From Thermincola carboxydiphila (GTDB lineage Bacteria; Bacillota; Thermincolia; Thermincolales; UBA2595): a stretch of DNA of 64,000 bases. The stretch covers positions 1 through 64,000 of the forward strand of contig JAENZJ010000006.1 in the NCBI GenBank assembly GCA_016841325.1, given 5' to 3'. Below, one piece after another: positions 1,248 through 9,688 of this stretch (its first letter is position 1; every line of letters starts with the position of its first letter). The notes under the pieces were generated by a model that did no database searches, was not told the origin of the DNA, and saw only the letters and a list, made by a program, of their open reading frames with translations. Made by a program: the position numbers and the translations under genes.

Positions 1248-1691
1248 ATGGCTGAGTTTCTGGGGGGCTACGGTCCTTGGCTTCTGTTTGGATTGTTTAT
1301 TTTTCTGATGATGAGGCGTGGCGGGTGCTGCGGCAGTCATGGCAGCCACAGACATGATGGGCATGACAGCGCGCGTAATCACGGAGGTCATGGCTGCTGT
1401 GGCGGTCAGGAGTCACATATGGACAAAGTTAATGATAAGTCTGAGCAAGGAGGTGATAACATGTCCCACGATTGTGAAACAAATGAACAAAAGGCTTTAT
1501 TTACCGTTGAGGGGATGACCTGTGGACACTGCAAGGCAGCAGTAGAGAAAGCTGTTGCATCAGTTGACGGTGTGTCCAGAGTGGAAGTTGACCTGGGCAG
1601 AAAAGAAGCAGCTGTCACATTTAACCCGGATAAGACCGGGGAAGAAGAGCTGAAAAAAGTAATCAGAGACCAGGGTTACCAGGTTGCCTGA
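1248..1691 (+). CDS. Membrane-anchored His/Cys-rich protein with C-terminal heavy-metal-associated (HMA) domain
   Basis: N-terminal TM, GGCCGSHGSHRHDGHDSARNHGGHGCCGG linker, GMTCGHCKAAVEKAV HMA motif. Confidence 0.85.
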   Translation: MAEFLGGYGPWLLFGLFIFLMMRRGGCCGSHGSHRHDGHDSARNHGGHGCCGGQESHMDKVNDKSEQGGDNMSHDCETNEQKALFTVEGMTCGHCKAAVEKAVASVDGVSRVEVDLGRKEAAVTFNPDKTGEEELKKVIRDQGYQVA

Positions 1692-1703
1692 GAGTTACCA
1701 AAA

Positions 1704-1735
1704 CCGGCCGCTTTTGTAATTGCGGCCGGTTTGCC
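1704..1735 (+). terminator. Rho-independent terminator-like hairpin
   Basis: aaccggccgcttttgtaattgcggccggttt. Confidence 0.7.
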
Positions 1736-1840
1736 GATTGGAACAGTTTTTCATACTTTCATATATTATATACCAGGAAAATAAAAAGTCAGCTGGTGTA
1801 AAATTGCAGTCTGAACGGAATAAAAACGGGGTGCAAAATT

Positions 1841-2740
1841 ATGAAAGTATGGGAGGACAGGATAAAAGCGCCTGATATAAAAACTGCCGATTACAGGTAT
1901 GTCGGCGGTACCAGGAAATTTCACCTTATTGTTGAGGAAATCAGGCATAATATTTTATCAGAGGTGGCAATCAGGGGGCTGGGATATAACGGTTCTACTC
2001 CGGGACCGCTGGTCCTTGGGAAACAAGGCGAATGGATAGAAATTACGGTGGAAAACCGTTCAGACAAGCCGACCGCCCTGCATGTGCATGGTTATGCCAA
2101 GCCTAACCAAGAGGACGGGGTGCCCGATATTGAGCCTACCCCTTTAATTGAACCCGGCACATCATATTCCTACAGATTTTTTCTCTGGCAGAGTGGTACG
2201 TTCTTTTATCATTCTGCCCAGGAATTTCAGGCACATAAGGGTTTAATGGGACCCTTTGTGGTGCTGCCGGAGGATGGGCCGGCGGGGTGGCAGTCAGTCC
2301 ATGACCGGGATTATGTATTTGTCCTGCAGGAATGGGAAATACCCCAGCCTGGACTGGGGAAGGTATCCCCGGGGACGTTTAAGCCTGATAAATTTGCCAG
2401 AAATCCAAACTTTTTTACCATAAACGGCAAAGCATTTCCTGATACCTCAAACGTTTATGTGAGCTATGGCCAGCGAGTGAGACTGAGGTTCATTAATAAA
2501 TCAAATGATTCCCACTCCATGCATCTTCACGGACATGACTTCAGGGTAGTGGCGGTTGATGGCTTTCCGGCTTCCGGACAGATGCAGGATACCATCAATG
2601 TTCCCTCAGGAGTCAGAGTTGATGTGGAATTTACCGCCAATAACCCCGGCATTTGGCCGATGAACGGGACCAAGACCTTCCATGAATCAAACAATGGAGA
2701 GAGGCCAGGGGGAATGATTGCCAGGTTTAAGTATCTTTAA
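1841..2740 (+). CDS. Multicopper oxidase family protein with degenerate copper sites
   Basis: Cupredoxin-like motifs HVHGY, YHSAQEFQAHKGLMG, MHLHGHDF, PGGM. Confidence 0.8.
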   Translation: MKVWEDRIKAPDIKTADYRYVGGTRKFHLIVEEIRHNILSEVAIRGLGYNGSTPGPLVLGKQGEWIEITVENRSDKPTALHVHGYAKPNQEDGVPDIEPTPLIEPGTSYSYRFFLWQSGTFFYHSAQEFQAHKGLMGPFVVLPEDGPAGWQSVHDRDYVFVLQEWEIPQPGLGKVSPGTFKPDKFARNPNFFTINGKAFPDTSNVYVSYGQRVRLRFINKSNDSHSMHLHGHDFRVVAVDGFPASGQMQDTINVPSGVRVDVEFTANNPGIWPMNGTKTFHESNNGERPGGMIARFKYL

Positions 2741-2743
2741 ATA

Positions 2744-2778
2744 TCAGGACCGTCCACACAAATAAGGACGGTCCTTTG
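2744..2778 (+). terminator. Rho-independent terminator-like hairpin
   Basis: aggaccgtccacacaaataaggacggtcctt. Confidence 0.7.
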
Positions 2779-2912
2779 GATATACTACTGTAAAGTTCAT
2801 AAAAGTTTCACAATTTCATTACAGTTGCGTCACATTTGACTGGTAATATAAAAAAATCGGTTATATCTTTAATATCAGGGACTGGATATTACCGTAACAA
2901 CGGAGGAAGAAT

Positions 2913-3515
2913 ATGACCAGAGCTGAAGTAATCAGGAAACGGTACAACAGGACTGCTGCTTTTTATGATTATATGGATACCATGATTAAAGAATCGACAA
3001 GGAAAAAAGTGATTGAAAATGCTTATGGAAAGGTTCTGGAAGCGGGAGTGGGAACAGGCAAAAACCTTAGGTATTATTCCCCTGACTGTGATGTTACCGG
3101 AATTGATTTTAGCCCAGGGATGTTAAAAAAAGCAGAGAAACGGGCAGCAGGGCTGAAAAACGTTTCACTACGGGAGATGGATGTTCAGGACCTTGATTTT
3201 CCGGATAACTACTTTGACACTGTGGTTGCTACCTGTGTATTCTGTTCGGTTCCTGATCCGGTAAAAGGGCTTCGGGAACTAAGGAGGGTCTGCAAACCTG
3301 ATGGGAAGCTGATTTTTCTTGAGCATATCAGAAGCAGCAGAAAACTTGCGGGACTTGTGATGGACATGTGTAATCCACTGGTAGTCAGGTTAATTGGGGC
3401 CAACATAAACAGGAGAACCCTTGAGAACATGGAGACTGCAGGGCTGAATTTACGCCGGGTTGACACGGTTGGGATGGAGATACTGAAACTGGTGATAGCT
3501 GAGCCGGGCAAGTAG
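2913..3515 (+). CDS. Class I SAM-dependent methyltransferase (UbiE/PMT-like)
   Basis: VLEAGVGTGKNL motif I, DFSPGML, MDVQDLDFPDNYFD. Confidence 0.85.
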   Translation: MTRAEVIRKRYNRTAAFYDYMDTMIKESTRKKVIENAYGKVLEAGVGTGKNLRYYSPDCDVTGIDFSPGMLKKAEKRAAGLKNVSLREMDVQDLDFPDNYFDTVVATCVFCSVPDPVKGLRELRRVCKPDGKLIFLEHIRSSRKLAGLVMDMCNPLVVRLIGANINRRTLENMETAGLNLRRVDTVGMEILKLVIAEPGK

Positions 3516-3542
3516 TTAAGCACAATGAAAAAACAATGAGGG

Positions 3543-3827
3543 GTGAGCCTGATGATGGGTCAATGGTTTTACGGGCCTTATGGCGGCAGCTGGCTGATGA
3601 TGGGAATAGGAATGATAGTCCACATCCTTTTCTGGGTGCTGATAATCTATGTAATTGCCAGATTATTGCGCGGGGTAAGCCTGGGGGGAAGAGGAGCACG
3701 TGATGGTGACTTTACAGTATATAAACAAGACCGTGACAGCGCTAAAGATATCTTAAAACAGCGCTAAGCAAAGGGAGAAATAACCAGAGCACAGTACCAC
3801 GAAATGCTGCAGGACATCGAAGAATAG
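3543..3827 (+). pseudogene. SHOCT-domain membrane protein interrupted by in-frame TAA at 3765-3767
   Basis: ...SAKDILKQR[TAA]AKGEITRAQYHEMLQDIEE*; the reading frame continues the SHOCT domain across the stop. Confidence 0.7.
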
Positions 3828-3882
3828 TACGTAAAAACAAATACTGCCTTGTTAAAAAAGGCAGCTTTATTATACCTTATGC

Positions 3883-3899
3883 TACTAGCGTTTGTAGTA
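3883..3899. promoter_or_regulatory. Putative BlaI-type operator TACTA-N7-TAGTA (site 1)
   Basis: tactagcgtttgtagta, upstream of 3946/4070 genes. Confidence 0.75.
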
Positions 3900-3945
3900 G
3901 AAATGCCTGTTTTGAATCTAACTTACCTAAGAAGGAGGTGTTATC

Positions 3946-4002
3946 ATGGTTAGAAAGAGATGGATGCTGCGTGCTGTGGCACACTGCAAAGGTGGACACT
4001 GA
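3946..4002 (+). CDS. Short ORF with strong RBS, MVRKRWMLRAVAHCKGGH
   Basis: gaaggaggtgttatcATG; 18 codons then TGA. Confidence 0.4.
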   Translation: MVRKRWMLRAVAHCKGGH

Positions 4003-4069
4003 CCGGGGTCCCGGGCATGACCTTAAACTGCCCGTTTCCCTTAGCCAAAAATTAAAAGGTGGGATACAG

Positions 4070-4543
4070 GTGAGACCTATTCTTTCTCTCATTTTGCAGC
4101 CAGTCCTGATAGGTACAGGCGCTTCCCTGGGACTGCTGGGGTCATATTATTTATTGGTTGGGCTGGTACAGTCCTGGTCCCATGCAGTGGAGGTGATTAC
4201 CGGTGACCCCCTGTATGTGGCTGCAATAACTGCCGGGTTTGGCATCCAGATTGGTCTTTATATCTATATTAAAAAAGTAAATAAATTAATCCGCAGTGGA
4301 AAGATGGCAGCACTGACAGCTTCCGGGACAGGGGCATCCTCTATATCCATGCTGGCATGCTGCCTGCACCACCTGGGTGATATACTGCCACTTATCGGCC
4401 TCTCAGGGGCAGCTCTGTTCTTTGAGAATTACAGATATCCTCTGATGATCGGAGGAATTATGATGAATATTTTGAGCATCACTCTGATGCTGCGTTTAAT
4501 CAATATGAACAGCCTCTGGCCCAGGTACATTTTTGCAAAATAA
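4070..4543 (+). CDS. Four-TM membrane protein with SMLACCLHHLGD motif
   Basis: GTG start preceded by aaaaggtggg; TM pattern; CC-x-HH motif in TM region. Confidence 0.65.
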   Translation: MRPILSLILQPVLIGTGASLGLLGSYYLLVGLVQSWSHAVEVITGDPLYVAAITAGFGIQIGLYIYIKKVNKLIRSGKMAALTASGTGASSISMLACCLHHLGDILPLIGLSGAALFFENYRYPLMIGGIMMNILSITLMLRLINMNSLWPRYIFAK

Positions 4544-4571
4544 ACTGTTCAACTTTTGGAGGAGATATCAT

Positions 4572-5156
4572 ATGAAAAACAAGTATACCATATTTGCAGC
4601 CCTGGTCATTATGTTAGGGCTGGTTTTTACGGGGTGTTCTCCGGCTACCGGTGATAGTGGGGAGGGCACAGGTGCAGCAGGCGGGGATAAAACAGTCCAG
4701 GGAGATGTTGGAGCAAGTGAGGACACAGGAAGCACCGGAGCTACAGGAAGCGCCGGTGGTACTCGGTCAGGGGACGGGCGGGATGTACGTACTGACCGGG
4801 GCGAAGGAGGAGTACAGGTAACCGCTGCATTGTTGTCACCGGAGTACCTGCGCGAAGCAGACACCGGTAATTATGACCCGGAAAAAAATATTGTAATTGA
4901 AATTAGCATGGGCACACATATGGGGGACCTTAGGGAATACCCTATCATGCAGAATGCCGAGCTAACTGTAAATGCTGCATCAATTAAACCGATAAAGTGG
5001 GAAGTTATAAATGATGACAGCCATCACCTGAGCGGTTGGCTTGTTTTTGAGGTAAACGACGAAAAAACTGCCAATAGCGGAGAATTACATTTAAATCTGA
5101 AAGACTTGCGGGGAGTGCCTGAAAGGGGCTTTTCCTGGGAAGATATTAATTATTAG
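4572..5156 (+). CDS. Secreted lipoprotein with Gly/Thr/Ala-rich linker
   Basis: RBS ggagatatcat; lipobox LVFTGC; low-complexity segment after Cys. Confidence 0.7.
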   Translation: MKNKYTIFAALVIMLGLVFTGCSPATGDSGEGTGAAGGDKTVQGDVGASEDTGSTGATGSAGGTRSGDGRDVRTDRGEGGVQVTAALLSPEYLREADTGNYDPEKNIVIEISMGTHMGDLREYPIMQNAELTVNAASIKPIKWEVINDDSHHLSGWLVFEVNDEKTANSGELHLNLKDLRGVPERGFSWEDINY

Positions 5157-5217
5157 CAGAGGAAGTCCTGGTTATAATTAACAGTCATTACTATTATATT
5201 CCTTCTTGCGCAAATGA

Positions 5218-5234
5218 TACTACTTATGGTAGTA
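5218..5234. promoter_or_regulatory. Putative BlaI-type operator (site 2)
   Basis: tactacttatggtagta. Confidence 0.8.
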
Positions 5235-5264
5235 TTAGCGCAGAGGTGATGAACGCTGAAGCCG

Positions 5265-6329
5265 GTGACACTAAAAGTTAAACGAATTCTTATGGTATTA
5301 GTTCTGGCCCTGGTGACCCTCTTTATTTCCTCATGCAGTCAGGACAGGTCGTCAAATGCAGTATATATAACCCAGATATCTAACCCGGAGACACTTTTGA
5401 CGAAATTTAAGAACAGAGAAATTGACGGTTTCCTTTTGTGGGAGCCTTACCCCCAGGAGGCTGTGCTGGGTAAGTACGGCACGATGCTAAAGACATCTTC
5501 TGAGATATGGCCCAACCATCCTGACTGTGTTGTGGCAGTTTCTAATAAACGAACGGACGAGAAACTGCTCCGGGCAGTTATGTGGGCCCATATCAAGTCC
5601 ACCAGGTTTATTACTGACCCTGTAAATAAGGATAAGGTGCTGGAATATGCTGCAGACTTTGCACAAAAGAATCCCGAGATAATTAAGGCATCCCTCACTA
5701 ACATCAAATTTGAGGAATTTCCTGATGAAGCGGAGTTCAGAAACTACTATACTGAACTTACCAAAAGCCCTATTCTTACAAGGAACATAACTGATCTGGG
5801 CTATGATTCTGATGAGGAGTTTTTTGCCGACTTCCTAGACCGCAAAATTTACGAATATGTGCGGGATAAACTGCAGGAAGACCCGGAATGGAGACCTGAC
5901 CCGGTGCCCGGAGACAGAAAGGTCAGATTTGCGCGTATTGTACCGGGGATATTTAACCTGGCCAGCTATATTGCTGAAAAAGAAGGCATTTATGAGGAAG
6001 CAGGCCTGATACCGGGCAAAAACCTTGAAATCCAGGAATATTTTCATGGTATTGCAATAATGCAGAAATTCAAGACCAATGAGCTGGATATAGCCTATGT
6101 GGGAGTAGCCCCGGCCACTCTCAAGAGAATAAATGATGATATCGATATCAGGGTCATTGGTGGGGTTGAAGGCCAGGATTCAGGTCTGGTGGTCAGGAAT
6201 GACACGGACATCAACAAGGTGTCTGACCTGGCAGGCAAAACCATTGCTGTTCCGGCAATAGGAAATGTGCAGTACGTACTTCTGGAAAAGGCACTCCGTG
6301 AGGGAGGGCTTGAACCTGTTGTGCAGTAA
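5265..6329 (+). CDS. ABC-type SsuA/NMT1-like substrate-binding lipoprotein with permuted domain order
   Basis: Lipobox LFISSC; C-terminal-half motifs (EIDGFLLWEPYPQEAV, IWPNHPDCVVAV) precede N-terminal-half motifs (VRFARIVPGIFNLASYIAEKEGIYEEAGL, DLAGKTIAVPAIGNVQYVLLEKALREGGL). Confidence 0.8.
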   Translation: MTLKVKRILMVLVLALVTLFISSCSQDRSSNAVYITQISNPETLLTKFKNREIDGFLLWEPYPQEAVLGKYGTMLKTSSEIWPNHPDCVVAVSNKRTDEKLLRAVMWAHIKSTRFITDPVNKDKVLEYAADFAQKNPEIIKASLTNIKFEEFPDEAEFRNYYTELTKSPILTRNITDLGYDSDEEFFADFLDRKIYEYVRDKLQEDPEWRPDPVPGDRKVRFARIVPGIFNLASYIAEKEGIYEEAGLIPGKNLEIQEYFHGIAIMQKFKTNELDIAYVGVAPATLKRINDDIDIRVIGGVEGQDSGLVVRNDTDINKVSDLAGKTIAVPAIGNVQYVLLEKALREGGLEPVVQ

Positions 6330-6362
6330 AACAATATTCACAGAATCAGGGGGAAATTAGGA

Positions 6363-7439
6363 ATGAACCTGTTAAAACTTAAAGCAGAACTCTTATGTAA
6401 GGGAATAAGGCTCTCCGATGATATGAAGCCAAGCGGTTACAGAGCCAGTAAAAGGGCTTCACTGTCGGAAGGCCGCTGTTTCAACCTGTTTTATAACGGC
6501 CGTAAAATACCTGTTAATGCTGCCGTTCATGAGGATTTTGTGAAAAACTCTCCATTTGAATATGACCATGAGCAAAAGCAGCTTCTAAGGGATGGGAATC
6601 CGGTAATTGAGGCACATATAATTGAGGACCCTGAATGGCTACTGGATGAACTGCCTGATGGGACAAAAATGTCTGATTTGTTTCAGCTCCATGCCTCCAA
6701 CGCTATTGCCACCTCCCTGGTGAACTACTGCCATTTTAAAGACGGAGGCAATGGCTGTAAATATTGTGCCCTGGATTCAGCGGAAGGTGTGGTCAGAAAA
6801 GAACCTGCCCAGATTGCTGCCGCAGTTAAACACCTTGAGGATAAAGGCCTTAACTTTATGGAACTGAACCTTAATGCCGGAACCCTGCCCGGACTTGACA
6901 GGAGCGCCAATCTGTACCTGGAGGTAATCAGGGAGGTGCGCAGGGTCAGCAGTATTCCCATTGCAGCCCAGATCTGTCCTCCCCAGGAATTTAAGTACAT
7001 AGATATGCTGAAGGATGCAGGACTGACAACCATAAGTTTTAATCTGGAGATATTTGACGAGGAAAGCAGACAAAAAATATGTCCCGGCAAGTCAAAAGTG
7101 ACTGTCAGCCACTATCTTGGGGCCTTAAAGTACGCCACCGGTGTCTTTGGCAGAGGTCAGGTTTCATCATGGCTGATTGCCGGCCTGGAACCAAAAGAAC
7201 GTACCATAGCCGGCGTAAGGGCAGTTGCCGAAACGGGGGCCATTCCCTTTGTAACTGTTTTCCGGCCGCTGATTGGTACAGAACTTGCCGGTATGCTTCC
7301 TCCTGCGGTTGATGATGTAATAGAAATATTTGAGGCAGTTGGACAGGCGGTGAGCGAAAACAGAGTGAATCCACAGGAATCACGATGTGGCTGTGTTAAC
7401 TGCAACTGCTGTTCTGCCCTCTTTGAATCAATTGAATAA
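6363..7439 (+). CDS. Radical SAM protein with CX8CX2C cluster motif and Cys-rich C-terminus
   Basis: CHFKDGGNGCKYC; C-terminal CGCVNCNCC. Confidence 0.75.
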   Translation: MNLLKLKAELLCKGIRLSDDMKPSGYRASKRASLSEGRCFNLFYNGRKIPVNAAVHEDFVKNSPFEYDHEQKQLLRDGNPVIEAHIIEDPEWLLDELPDGTKMSDLFQLHASNAIATSLVNYCHFKDGGNGCKYCALDSAEGVVRKEPAQIAAAVKHLEDKGLNFMELNLNAGTLPGLDRSANLYLEVIREVRRVSSIPIAAQICPPQEFKYIDMLKDAGLTTISFNLEIFDEESRQKICPGKSKVTVSHYLGALKYATGVFGRGQVSSWLIAGLEPKERTIAGVRAVAETGAIPFVTVFRPLIGTELAGMLPPAVDDVIEIFEAVGQAVSENRVNPQESRCGCVNCNCCSALFESIE

Positions 7440-7452
7440 AAGGAGTATGGCT

Positions 7453-8790
7453 ATGCACTTGGTATTAATAAACCCGTCATTATTTTCACCTGAGGAGTAT
7501 AAGGCGAGGTTTGACAAATTTCTGGACTGGGTCAAAAAAGGCAATATGTATGTATATCCATTTGAACCGCCCCTGGGCCTGGCTTCACTCAAGGCAGCCC
7601 TGGAGACCGGGGGGTTTAAAGTTGAACTAATCGACCAGCAGGGCCATACCATGGAGCGAAGTATATTGCTGGAAAAGCTGAGGATGTACAGGCCAGGAAT
7701 TGTGGGTCTAACCTGTATGACTTCAACTTTCCCTGTTGTCAGGGAACTGGCAGCGGCTATAAAAAAGGAGCTTCCGGAAACCCTGGTTATCGCCGGAGGT
7801 GTCCACCCGACTGTCTGCCCCGGGGAGACCCTGATGAATTCTGCAATAGACGTGGTTTTCCGGGGAGAAGCGGAAATCACCTTAAAGAAGTTTTTAGCCA
7901 CATTCCCCGGCGGGCCGTGGCAGGAGACCCCCGGAATAGGATACATGGAAAATGGCAACCTGGTTCTGACAGATATGCCTGAGCCGGTCAAAGACATTAA
8001 TGAGCTTCCGATGCCTGATTATCACTCTTTTCCCGCTGCCAATTATATGGAATATAACAGCCACTTAAGAGGTATAAAAGGGATTTCCATGCTTGTTTCC
8101 AGAGGCTGTCCTTATGAGTGTGCCTTCTGTGCGGTGAAGGCCACCATGGGGCGCGGCTGGCGGGCCAGGTCTCCGGAAACAGTTGTTGCTGAAATAAAAA
8201 AACTGCACCGGCAATTTGGGATCGAGGGAGTTTGGTTTAAAGACAGCATTTTCAATATGAATAAAGGCTGGTTTCAGGAATTCTGTGAGAGGCTGCTGGC
8301 AGAGAAGCTTCCGGTTACCTGGCAGTTCAATACCAGGGTAGACCTGCTTGATGAAGGGTCTTTGTCCCTGGCTAAAGAAGCCGGGCTTAACCAGATAGAC
8401 CTTGGCATAGAGTCAGGATCTCCCCGGACTCTTGAGAGGCTGAAGAAGAAGACCACAGTGGAACAGATTGTGTCCGGAATTAAATTGGCTAAAAAGTATG
8501 TCAGGGTATCAGGCTTTTTTATGATAGGGTGTCCGGGAGAAACCATGGAAGACATTGATATGACCTTCAATCTTGCCAGAACCCTGGAACTCGACTGCTG
8601 CAGCTGGAGTATCTACAACCCGCTGCCTGGTTCAGAGCTTTTTGACCGGCTGGCAGCCGAAGGGAAGCTGTCCAGAGGGAAGGTTGCTGAAGAAGTCCAT
8701 TTCACCAGGGTGCCGGTGAGTTTTTGTGAGGTGCCTGTCCGGGAATTAAATGACAAGTATGAGGAAATCAACGGATATTTCGCAGGTTGA
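7453..8790 (+). CDS. B12-binding-domain radical SAM protein
   Basis: N-terminal Rossmann-like PPLGLASLKAALE...GGVHPTVCPGE; CPYECAFC cluster motif; RBS aaaaggag. Confidence 0.85.
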   Translation: MHLVLINPSLFSPEEYKARFDKFLDWVKKGNMYVYPFEPPLGLASLKAALETGGFKVELIDQQGHTMERSILLEKLRMYRPGIVGLTCMTSTFPVVRELAAAIKKELPETLVIAGGVHPTVCPGETLMNSAIDVVFRGEAEITLKKFLATFPGGPWQETPGIGYMENGNLVLTDMPEPVKDINELPMPDYHSFPAANYMEYNSHLRGIKGISMLVSRGCPYECAFCAVKATMGRGWRARSPETVVAEIKKLHRQFGIEGVWFKDSIFNMNKGWFQEFCERLLAEKLPVTWQFNTRVDLLDEGSLSLAKEAGLNQIDLGIESGSPRTLERLKKKTTVEQIVSGIKLAKKYVRVSGFFMIGCPGETMEDIDMTFNLARTLELDCCSWSIYNPLPGSELFDRLAAEGKLSRGKVAEEVHFTRVPVSFCEVPVRELNDKYEEINGYFAG

Positions 8791-8887: not shown

Positions 8888-9688
8888 ATGGAGGTAGTGA
8901 ATTATTCTGGGAATGGAGTGATGGTTTTGTATCCGATCTTATTTCATATAGGCAGTATAGAAGTACGGGCCTGGGGTGTTATGGTTGCTTTGGGAATAAT
9001 CCTGGGTACATTTATTGCGTTCAGGCTGGCCCGGAAAGAGGGGCTGGATGGCAATCTTGTGTTTGATTATGTACTGTATGCAGTTATCTCCGGTTTTCTG
9101 GGCGCCCGTTTATGGGAAGTTGTATTCTCCTGGGAAAACTTTGCCGGAGCGCCCCTGAACGCGTTAAAATTCTGGAGCGGCGGCCTGTCAATACAGGGCG
9201 CTGTTGCCGGTGGGCTACTGTTTACACTGTGGTTCATCAGGAAGCATAACCTTAATTTCTGGCAATTTGCCGATATCCTGGCTCCCGGGCTGATAGCAGG
9301 ACAGGCGGTTGGCAGGATCGGGTGTTTTTTAAATGGTGATGCATACGGCATACCTGCACAGTCAGGGTGGGGTGTGGTTTACCGCCCCGGTACTCCGGCA
9401 TACAGCGTTTACGGTGATACTCCACTGGTTCCGGCAGAATTGCTGGAGGGTGCGGGAGACCTGGCAATTCTCCTGGTGCTGCTGTTGTTATTTGGCCGCA
9501 GACCATTTAACGGTTTTATTGCCCTGATGTACTTTGTTCTTTATTCTGTCCTCAGGTTCACCCTTGAATTCTGGAGAGGTGACAGCCTGCTGATGACTGA
9601 AGGGCTAAAGGCCGCTCAGGTATCAAGCATTATAATAGCTGTTGCTGCAATTGGTGTCATCATATTTAAAATGAGACAAAAAGTCTGA
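8888..9688 (+). CDS. lgt: Prolipoprotein diacylglyceryl transferase
   Basis: GGLSIQGAVAGGLL, GQAVGRIGCFLNGDAYG signature. Confidence 0.9.
   Translation: MEVVNYSGNGVMVLYPILFHIGSIEVRAWGVMVALGIILGTFIAFRLARKEGLDGNLVFDYVLYAVISGFLGARLWEVVFSWENFAGAPLNALKFWSGGLSIQGAVAGGLLFTLWFIRKHNLNFWQFADILAPGLIAGQAVGRIGCFLNGDAYGIPAQSGWGVVYRPGTPAYSVYGDTPLVPAELLEGAGDLAILLVLLLLFGRRPFNGFIALMYFVLYSVLRFTLEFWRGDSLLMTEGLKAAQVSSIIIAVAAIGVIIFKMRQKV

Follow-up and report, generated by a model that had tools for sequence, protein, structure and literature searches.

A circularly permuted SsuA/TauA-type binding lipoprotein in Thermincola carboxydiphila, with relatives in four arrangements at one archaeal locus

How does a solute-binding lipoprotein come to carry its two halves in exchanged order, and is such a protein still at work? 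The question is posed by a gene at 5265..6329 (forward strand, as are all features below) of the window, that is, the whole stretch of 64,000 nucleotides from Thermincola carboxydiphila contig JAENZJ010000006.1 analyzed here. A preliminary description, made from the letters alone, proposed a circularly permuted SsuA/NMT1-type lipoprotein, either a genuine permutant or the remnant of a tandem duplication.

From a GTG start the gene encodes 354 amino acids, which we assign to a circularly permuted SsuA/TauA/NMT1-type substrate-binding lipoprotein on the combined basis of sequence, Pfam, orthologues, profile alignment, AlphaFold2, and dN/dS. Its hydrophobic N-terminus reads as a predicted signal peptide (5265..5336) with lipobox ISSC and lipidated Cys24. 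The canonical C-terminal half comes first (residues 33-216, 5361..5912), as placed by Pfam, profile alignment, and comparison of the motif WPNHPDC within it; the canonical N-terminal half comes last (residues 217-354, 5913..6326; Pfam and profile alignment), and a linker of 14 residues (206-219, 5880..5921) joins the two old termini, C to N. Positions 154-249 of the Pfam NMT1_2 profile fall on residues 33-127 (76.6 bits) and positions 7-119 of NMT1 on residues 234-351 (31.9 bits), both over cut-off; the NCBIfam SsuA family gives a sub-cut-off match with the N-terminal part of its model at residues 233-347. Alignment to TauA (6ssy), with a profile built from 39 permuted sequences, yields two significant blocks in swapped order, query 252-342 on chain 28-119 and query 34-124 on chain 128-227. 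Homology to the SsuA/TauA/NMT1-like proteins thus extends over both halves, and the lipobox and signal peptide are present, with the canonical N-to-C order failing. The frame is open throughout, and its end matches that of the complete permuted relatives aligned, which bears out the earlier remark that the ORF stops where a classic protein would go on. The proposed kinship, content, and coordinates were likewise right.

An AlphaFold2 model, computed from an alignment of permuted relatives, predicts a single well-packed domain (pLDDT 93.9, pTM 0.87) in which the old termini are bridged at residues 206-219, between a helix (194-205) and a strand (220-225). Alignments and element lists together place the cut in the second lobe, probably between its first helix and second strand. 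In a Foldseek comparison with the PDB, which depends on chain order, this model found no proper match, the best being OpuAC (target TM 0.45, rmsd 9.6 Å, E 6.5e-6); the hits to OpuAC and to NMDA receptors, with TM below 0.5 and rmsd of at least 9 Å, were not taken as homology. The model of a canonical-order family member (locus L151, pLDDT 92.4) matches TauA and SsuA with target TM up to 0.84 and E down to 5.5e-20. This contrast fits a common fold threaded in a different order.

Comparison with close relatives speaks to whether the gene is intact. In a Thermincola ferriacetica MAG the orthologue, 88% identical, has its halves in this order too and keeps the downstream neighbors. Two paralogues on other contigs of the genome from which the window comes, about 46% identical, share the cut. 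The gene is under purifying selection, with a dN/dS of 0.10 (0.08 for the first radical-SAM gene behind it and 0.07 for lgt). Because orthologue and paralogues share the order, dN/dS is 0.10, and one confident domain is predicted, we conclude that the window ORF is an intact, genuine circular permutant, C-half then N-half, maintained by selection. Structure prediction and like-ordered orthologues, two of the checks proposed at the outset, both came out in favor of permutation; no unpermuted paralogue with transporter genes, as had been asked for, turned up among the close paralogues in this genome, both of which are permuted. The protein probably works as SsuA-type proteins do but departs from their chain order, so that a permuted sister group is the best place for it.

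What it works on and with is less direct. As the preliminary description had observed, no permease or ATPase gene adjoins the window copy, and two radical-SAM genes follow. The first (6363..7439), a variant radical-SAM protein (NF045502), begins about 33-34 nt past the binding-protein gene; the second (7447..8790) is a B12-binding radical-SAM protein whose ORF opens at 7387, with the start at 7447 likelier on evidence that includes alignment of orthologues. Both probably belong to the same operon. Directly downstream of the pair lies lgt, for prolipoprotein diacylglyceryl transferase (8888-9688).

By family, a small solute would be bound between the two lobes, as in relatives, with the lipid anchor now presumably leading into lobe 2. 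Because permease and ATPase are missing beside the window copy, transport is something that we infer. The orphan protein would most likely share one of the two paralogous systems, passing its ligand to the permease and ATPase there, or else serve the two radical-SAM enzymes. It is possible, if unlikely, that the latter role is the whole of it and that the protein is a lipoprotein receptor or chaperone-like partner of the two radical-SAM enzymes with no part in a transporter. The tight spacing, the lack of adjoining transporter genes, the identical arrangement in T. ferriacetica, and a divergent motif (where the family has HPCC, the window gene and its T. ferriacetica orthologue have HPDC) all lean that way. 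Radical-SAM enzymes are, however, cytoplasmic by type and the binding protein is extracytoplasmic, and relatives of the first radical-SAM gene, about 30% identical to it, adjoin complete operons of canonical binding protein, permease, and ATPase in Desulfobacterota-type loci. In loci of that type (L074 at 1654-4199, L081, L067, L069, and L073), canonical binding-protein operons also adjoin MSMEG_0568-type radical-SAM and AIR-synthase-like genes, the radical-SAM protein of L074 and L081 carrying a GNAT domain. Rhodobacter, in which isethionate use involves SsuCAB together with a radical-SAM gene (PMC11423573), offers an analogy and was taken as no more than that.

Kinship makes a sulfonate a plausible ligand. 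A narrower proposal, that the family including the window copy imports coenzyme M or a related (methylated) sulfonate, we regard as doubtful. It draws on the kinship to SsuA/TauA, on a coenzyme M-specific SsuABC reported in M. acetivorans (PMC12068725), on cysteate synthase and sulfopyruvate decarboxylase genes upstream in Ca. Mnemosynella, and on the MtaA/CmuA-type genes beside both Thermincola paralogues. The clusters of these paralogues hold two MtaA/CmuA-type methyltransferases along with a corrinoid protein, a RACo-type activator, and an MtrH-family protein, and continue with an SsuC-type permease and then an ATPase. Against it, the link to coenzyme M genes was seen in one genome, none of the 40 cysteate synthase regions examined holds a permuted binding protein, and MtaA/CmuA-type enzymes serve many methyl donors; coenzyme M importer was accordingly rejected as a firm assignment. 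Archaeal methoxydotrophy (Mto) was likewise set aside as a context for the paralogues, as transport in the published Mto clusters is by MFS proteins and the UroD-type genes near the paralogues score as MtaA/CmuA. In three Archaeoglobi-class genomes (L020 at 7031-7936, L272 from 5539, and L273 from 4368), a different SsuA-like protein of 302-326 amino acids, with no obvious signal peptide and in canonical order where assessed, adjoins cysteate synthase and sulfopyruvate decarboxylase.

The permuted order extends far beyond Thermincola. A GTDB scan, followed by an order test on the ORFs returned, gave about 40 loci with the C-N order (P1) in Bacillota, Archaeoglobi, Ca. Mnemosynella, Methanomassiliicoccales, and other Thermoplasmata, alongside about 40 relatives in canonical (N-C) order from lineages that include Asgard archaea, Desulfobacterota, and Chloroflexota. 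The motif WPxHPCC is common to the permuted and the canonical forms, with HPCC in nearly all relatives. Permease and ATPase genes are present at most surveyed loci, and, the window copy aside, nearly all permuted copies, both paralogues among them, have such operons around them. Some individual genes are more elaborate: P1 proteins of 900 and 922 amino acids (L142 at 1-2700 and L143 at 3672-6437) bear long C-terminal extensions resembling FnIII-type repeats; L143 also has a membrane segment at its C-terminus. One P1 gene (L159, 2590-3769) is broken across two frames close to a base that is masked or ambiguous, probably by a sequencing fault or as a pseudogene. A 559-amino-acid protein (L060) was considered as a tandem intermediate and rejected, its extra N-terminus having no match to a binding protein.

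Two canonical-order genes, L064 and L083, fell within the permuted clade at a locus that was otherwise syntenic. Matches were present in 128 of the 148 genomes of the same order as these two (the name, Methanomassiliicoccales-type, being inferred from named loci), and 40 places from among them were scanned with HMMs of the N-half and the C-half. One syntenic locus of this type holds four arrangements: P1, P2 (N2-C-N1), a fused C-N-C-N, and the canonical N-C. In P2, half-domain HMMs place N-half positions 77-133 first, then the C-half, then N-half positions 2-73. The fused C-N-C-N gene (L141), on a contig of 18.6 kb, encodes 731 amino acids; fused double P2 genes (L144-L147), of 766-793 amino acids, carry two binding units per chain and adjoin permease and ATPase genes. 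Three genes in the scan are canonical (L140, on a contig of 1.8 Mb, L150, and L151). The gene order Elp3, HTH, binding protein, permease, ATPase, XRE, TrxR is kept fully or in part around these three and L141, and likewise around many P1 and some P2 genes.

The direction of change was approached through two trees in which all chains were rotated to canonical order, one of 126 rows and a careful one of 58. The latter places P2 within P1 (nested nodes 100/98, 98/91, 100/98, and 100/99) and the three canonical genes within the Thermoplasmatota P1 clade (enclosing nodes 100/99, 98/87, and 100/100), from which the ancestral canonical proteins are separated by a 90/86 branch; exactly where the three branch within P1 is weakly resolved. 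AU tests rejected a single clade of canonical and nested canonical proteins (p 1.1e-5) and of P1 alone (p 6.6e-5), both values being optimistic, as the clades were named with a first tree already in view. The junction from N-half to C-half offers a further record. Relative to the model, it is 2-5 residues shorter in 23 ancestral canonical proteins and 5 longer in the three nested ones, whose loop is thus 7-10 residues longer than in any of the 23 and resembles a fusion scar. In L151 it reads VKLDGT and then DGDDD, much as if a P1 C-terminus ran into the segment that follows the anchor in P1 proteins.

On the simplest reading, P1 arose once and was followed by a move to P2 and one reversal, via tandem fusions. 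The fused tandem forms of archaeal relatives support tandem duplication as the route; a shift of register would probably consist of the fusion of tandem copies and their trimming in a new frame. The permutation itself is probably old and, most simply, derives once from canonical ancestors. For the Methanomassiliicoccales-type lineage, the tree, the synteny, the fused tandems, and the junction scar together suggest a further change of register to P2 and, within one clade, a return to canonical order. It is likely, in our judgment, that one orthologous gene has passed through these several registers and that the fused tandems are surviving intermediates. The main alternative to a single origin with reversal is repeated permutation at one loop: the C-N order would have arisen many times, and the three canonical genes would simply keep the ancestral state. 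The loop at the cut site tolerates cutting, fused tandems able to yield permutants exist, and a long junction loop could predate permutation. That account nevertheless requires several independent events at one identical site; it also runs against the AU test on grouping nested with ancestral canonical proteins, the P1 branches L036 and L037 that lie outside the nested canonical genes, and the longer nested junction, and we consider it rather improbable. Misassembly, a pseudogene, or a decaying remnant of tandem duplication, to which only the unusual order itself points, can be dismissed given the orthologue in an independent MAG, the two like-ordered paralogues on other contigs, the low dN/dS, the complete domain content, and the confident model. 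The explanation that best covers the whole, and that we hold to be quite likely, is a functional permuted SsuA/TauA-type lipoprotein whose old, single-origin permutation was followed by later register changes, reversal included.

Natural circular permutation is usually viewed as a finished event between distant proteins. If the reading of single origin and reversal is true, permutation is repeatable and reversible within a living family; four arrangements at one syntenic locus make the duplication-and-trimming model testable stepwise with existing proteins. Annotation based on half-domains hides permuted binding proteins, and one may well ask why anchored binding proteins tolerate a shift of the anchor to the other lobe. 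In the open-access literature that was searched, we found no earlier account either of this family or of a permutation that had been reversed.

Among known systems, the nearest are SsuA, TauA, and NrtA-CmpA (NMT1-like, type II), with homology over both halves and a canonical-order family member that models onto TauA and SsuA; the window protein differs from them in its swapped chain order and in having no adjoining permease or ATPase. TpMglB-2 (Tp0684) of Treponema pallidum is a lipoprotein whose type I fold is naturally circularly permuted, a class named type Ic (PMC4990184). Like the window protein, it is a lipid-anchored binding protein whose relatives have the same order; unlike the window family, it has the type I MglB fold, its permutation adds a fourth lobe crossing, and no multi-register family is described in that paper. 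All matches of the window protein were to NMT1/SsuA-type and other type II families, with no homology to type I MglB among them. OpuAC, ProX, molybdate-binding proteins, and CysB form a published permutation family (PMC2395249). That group too represents permutation among periplasmic-binding-protein folds, and OpuAC was the top, if poor, Foldseek match; its members, however, are distant proteins of less than 24% identity recognized by structure, whereas the window family presents a single orthologous gene in several registers at a conserved locus. Since permuted binding proteins such as TpMglB-2 and OpuAC were already known, the kind is not new; the surprise lies in the several registers.
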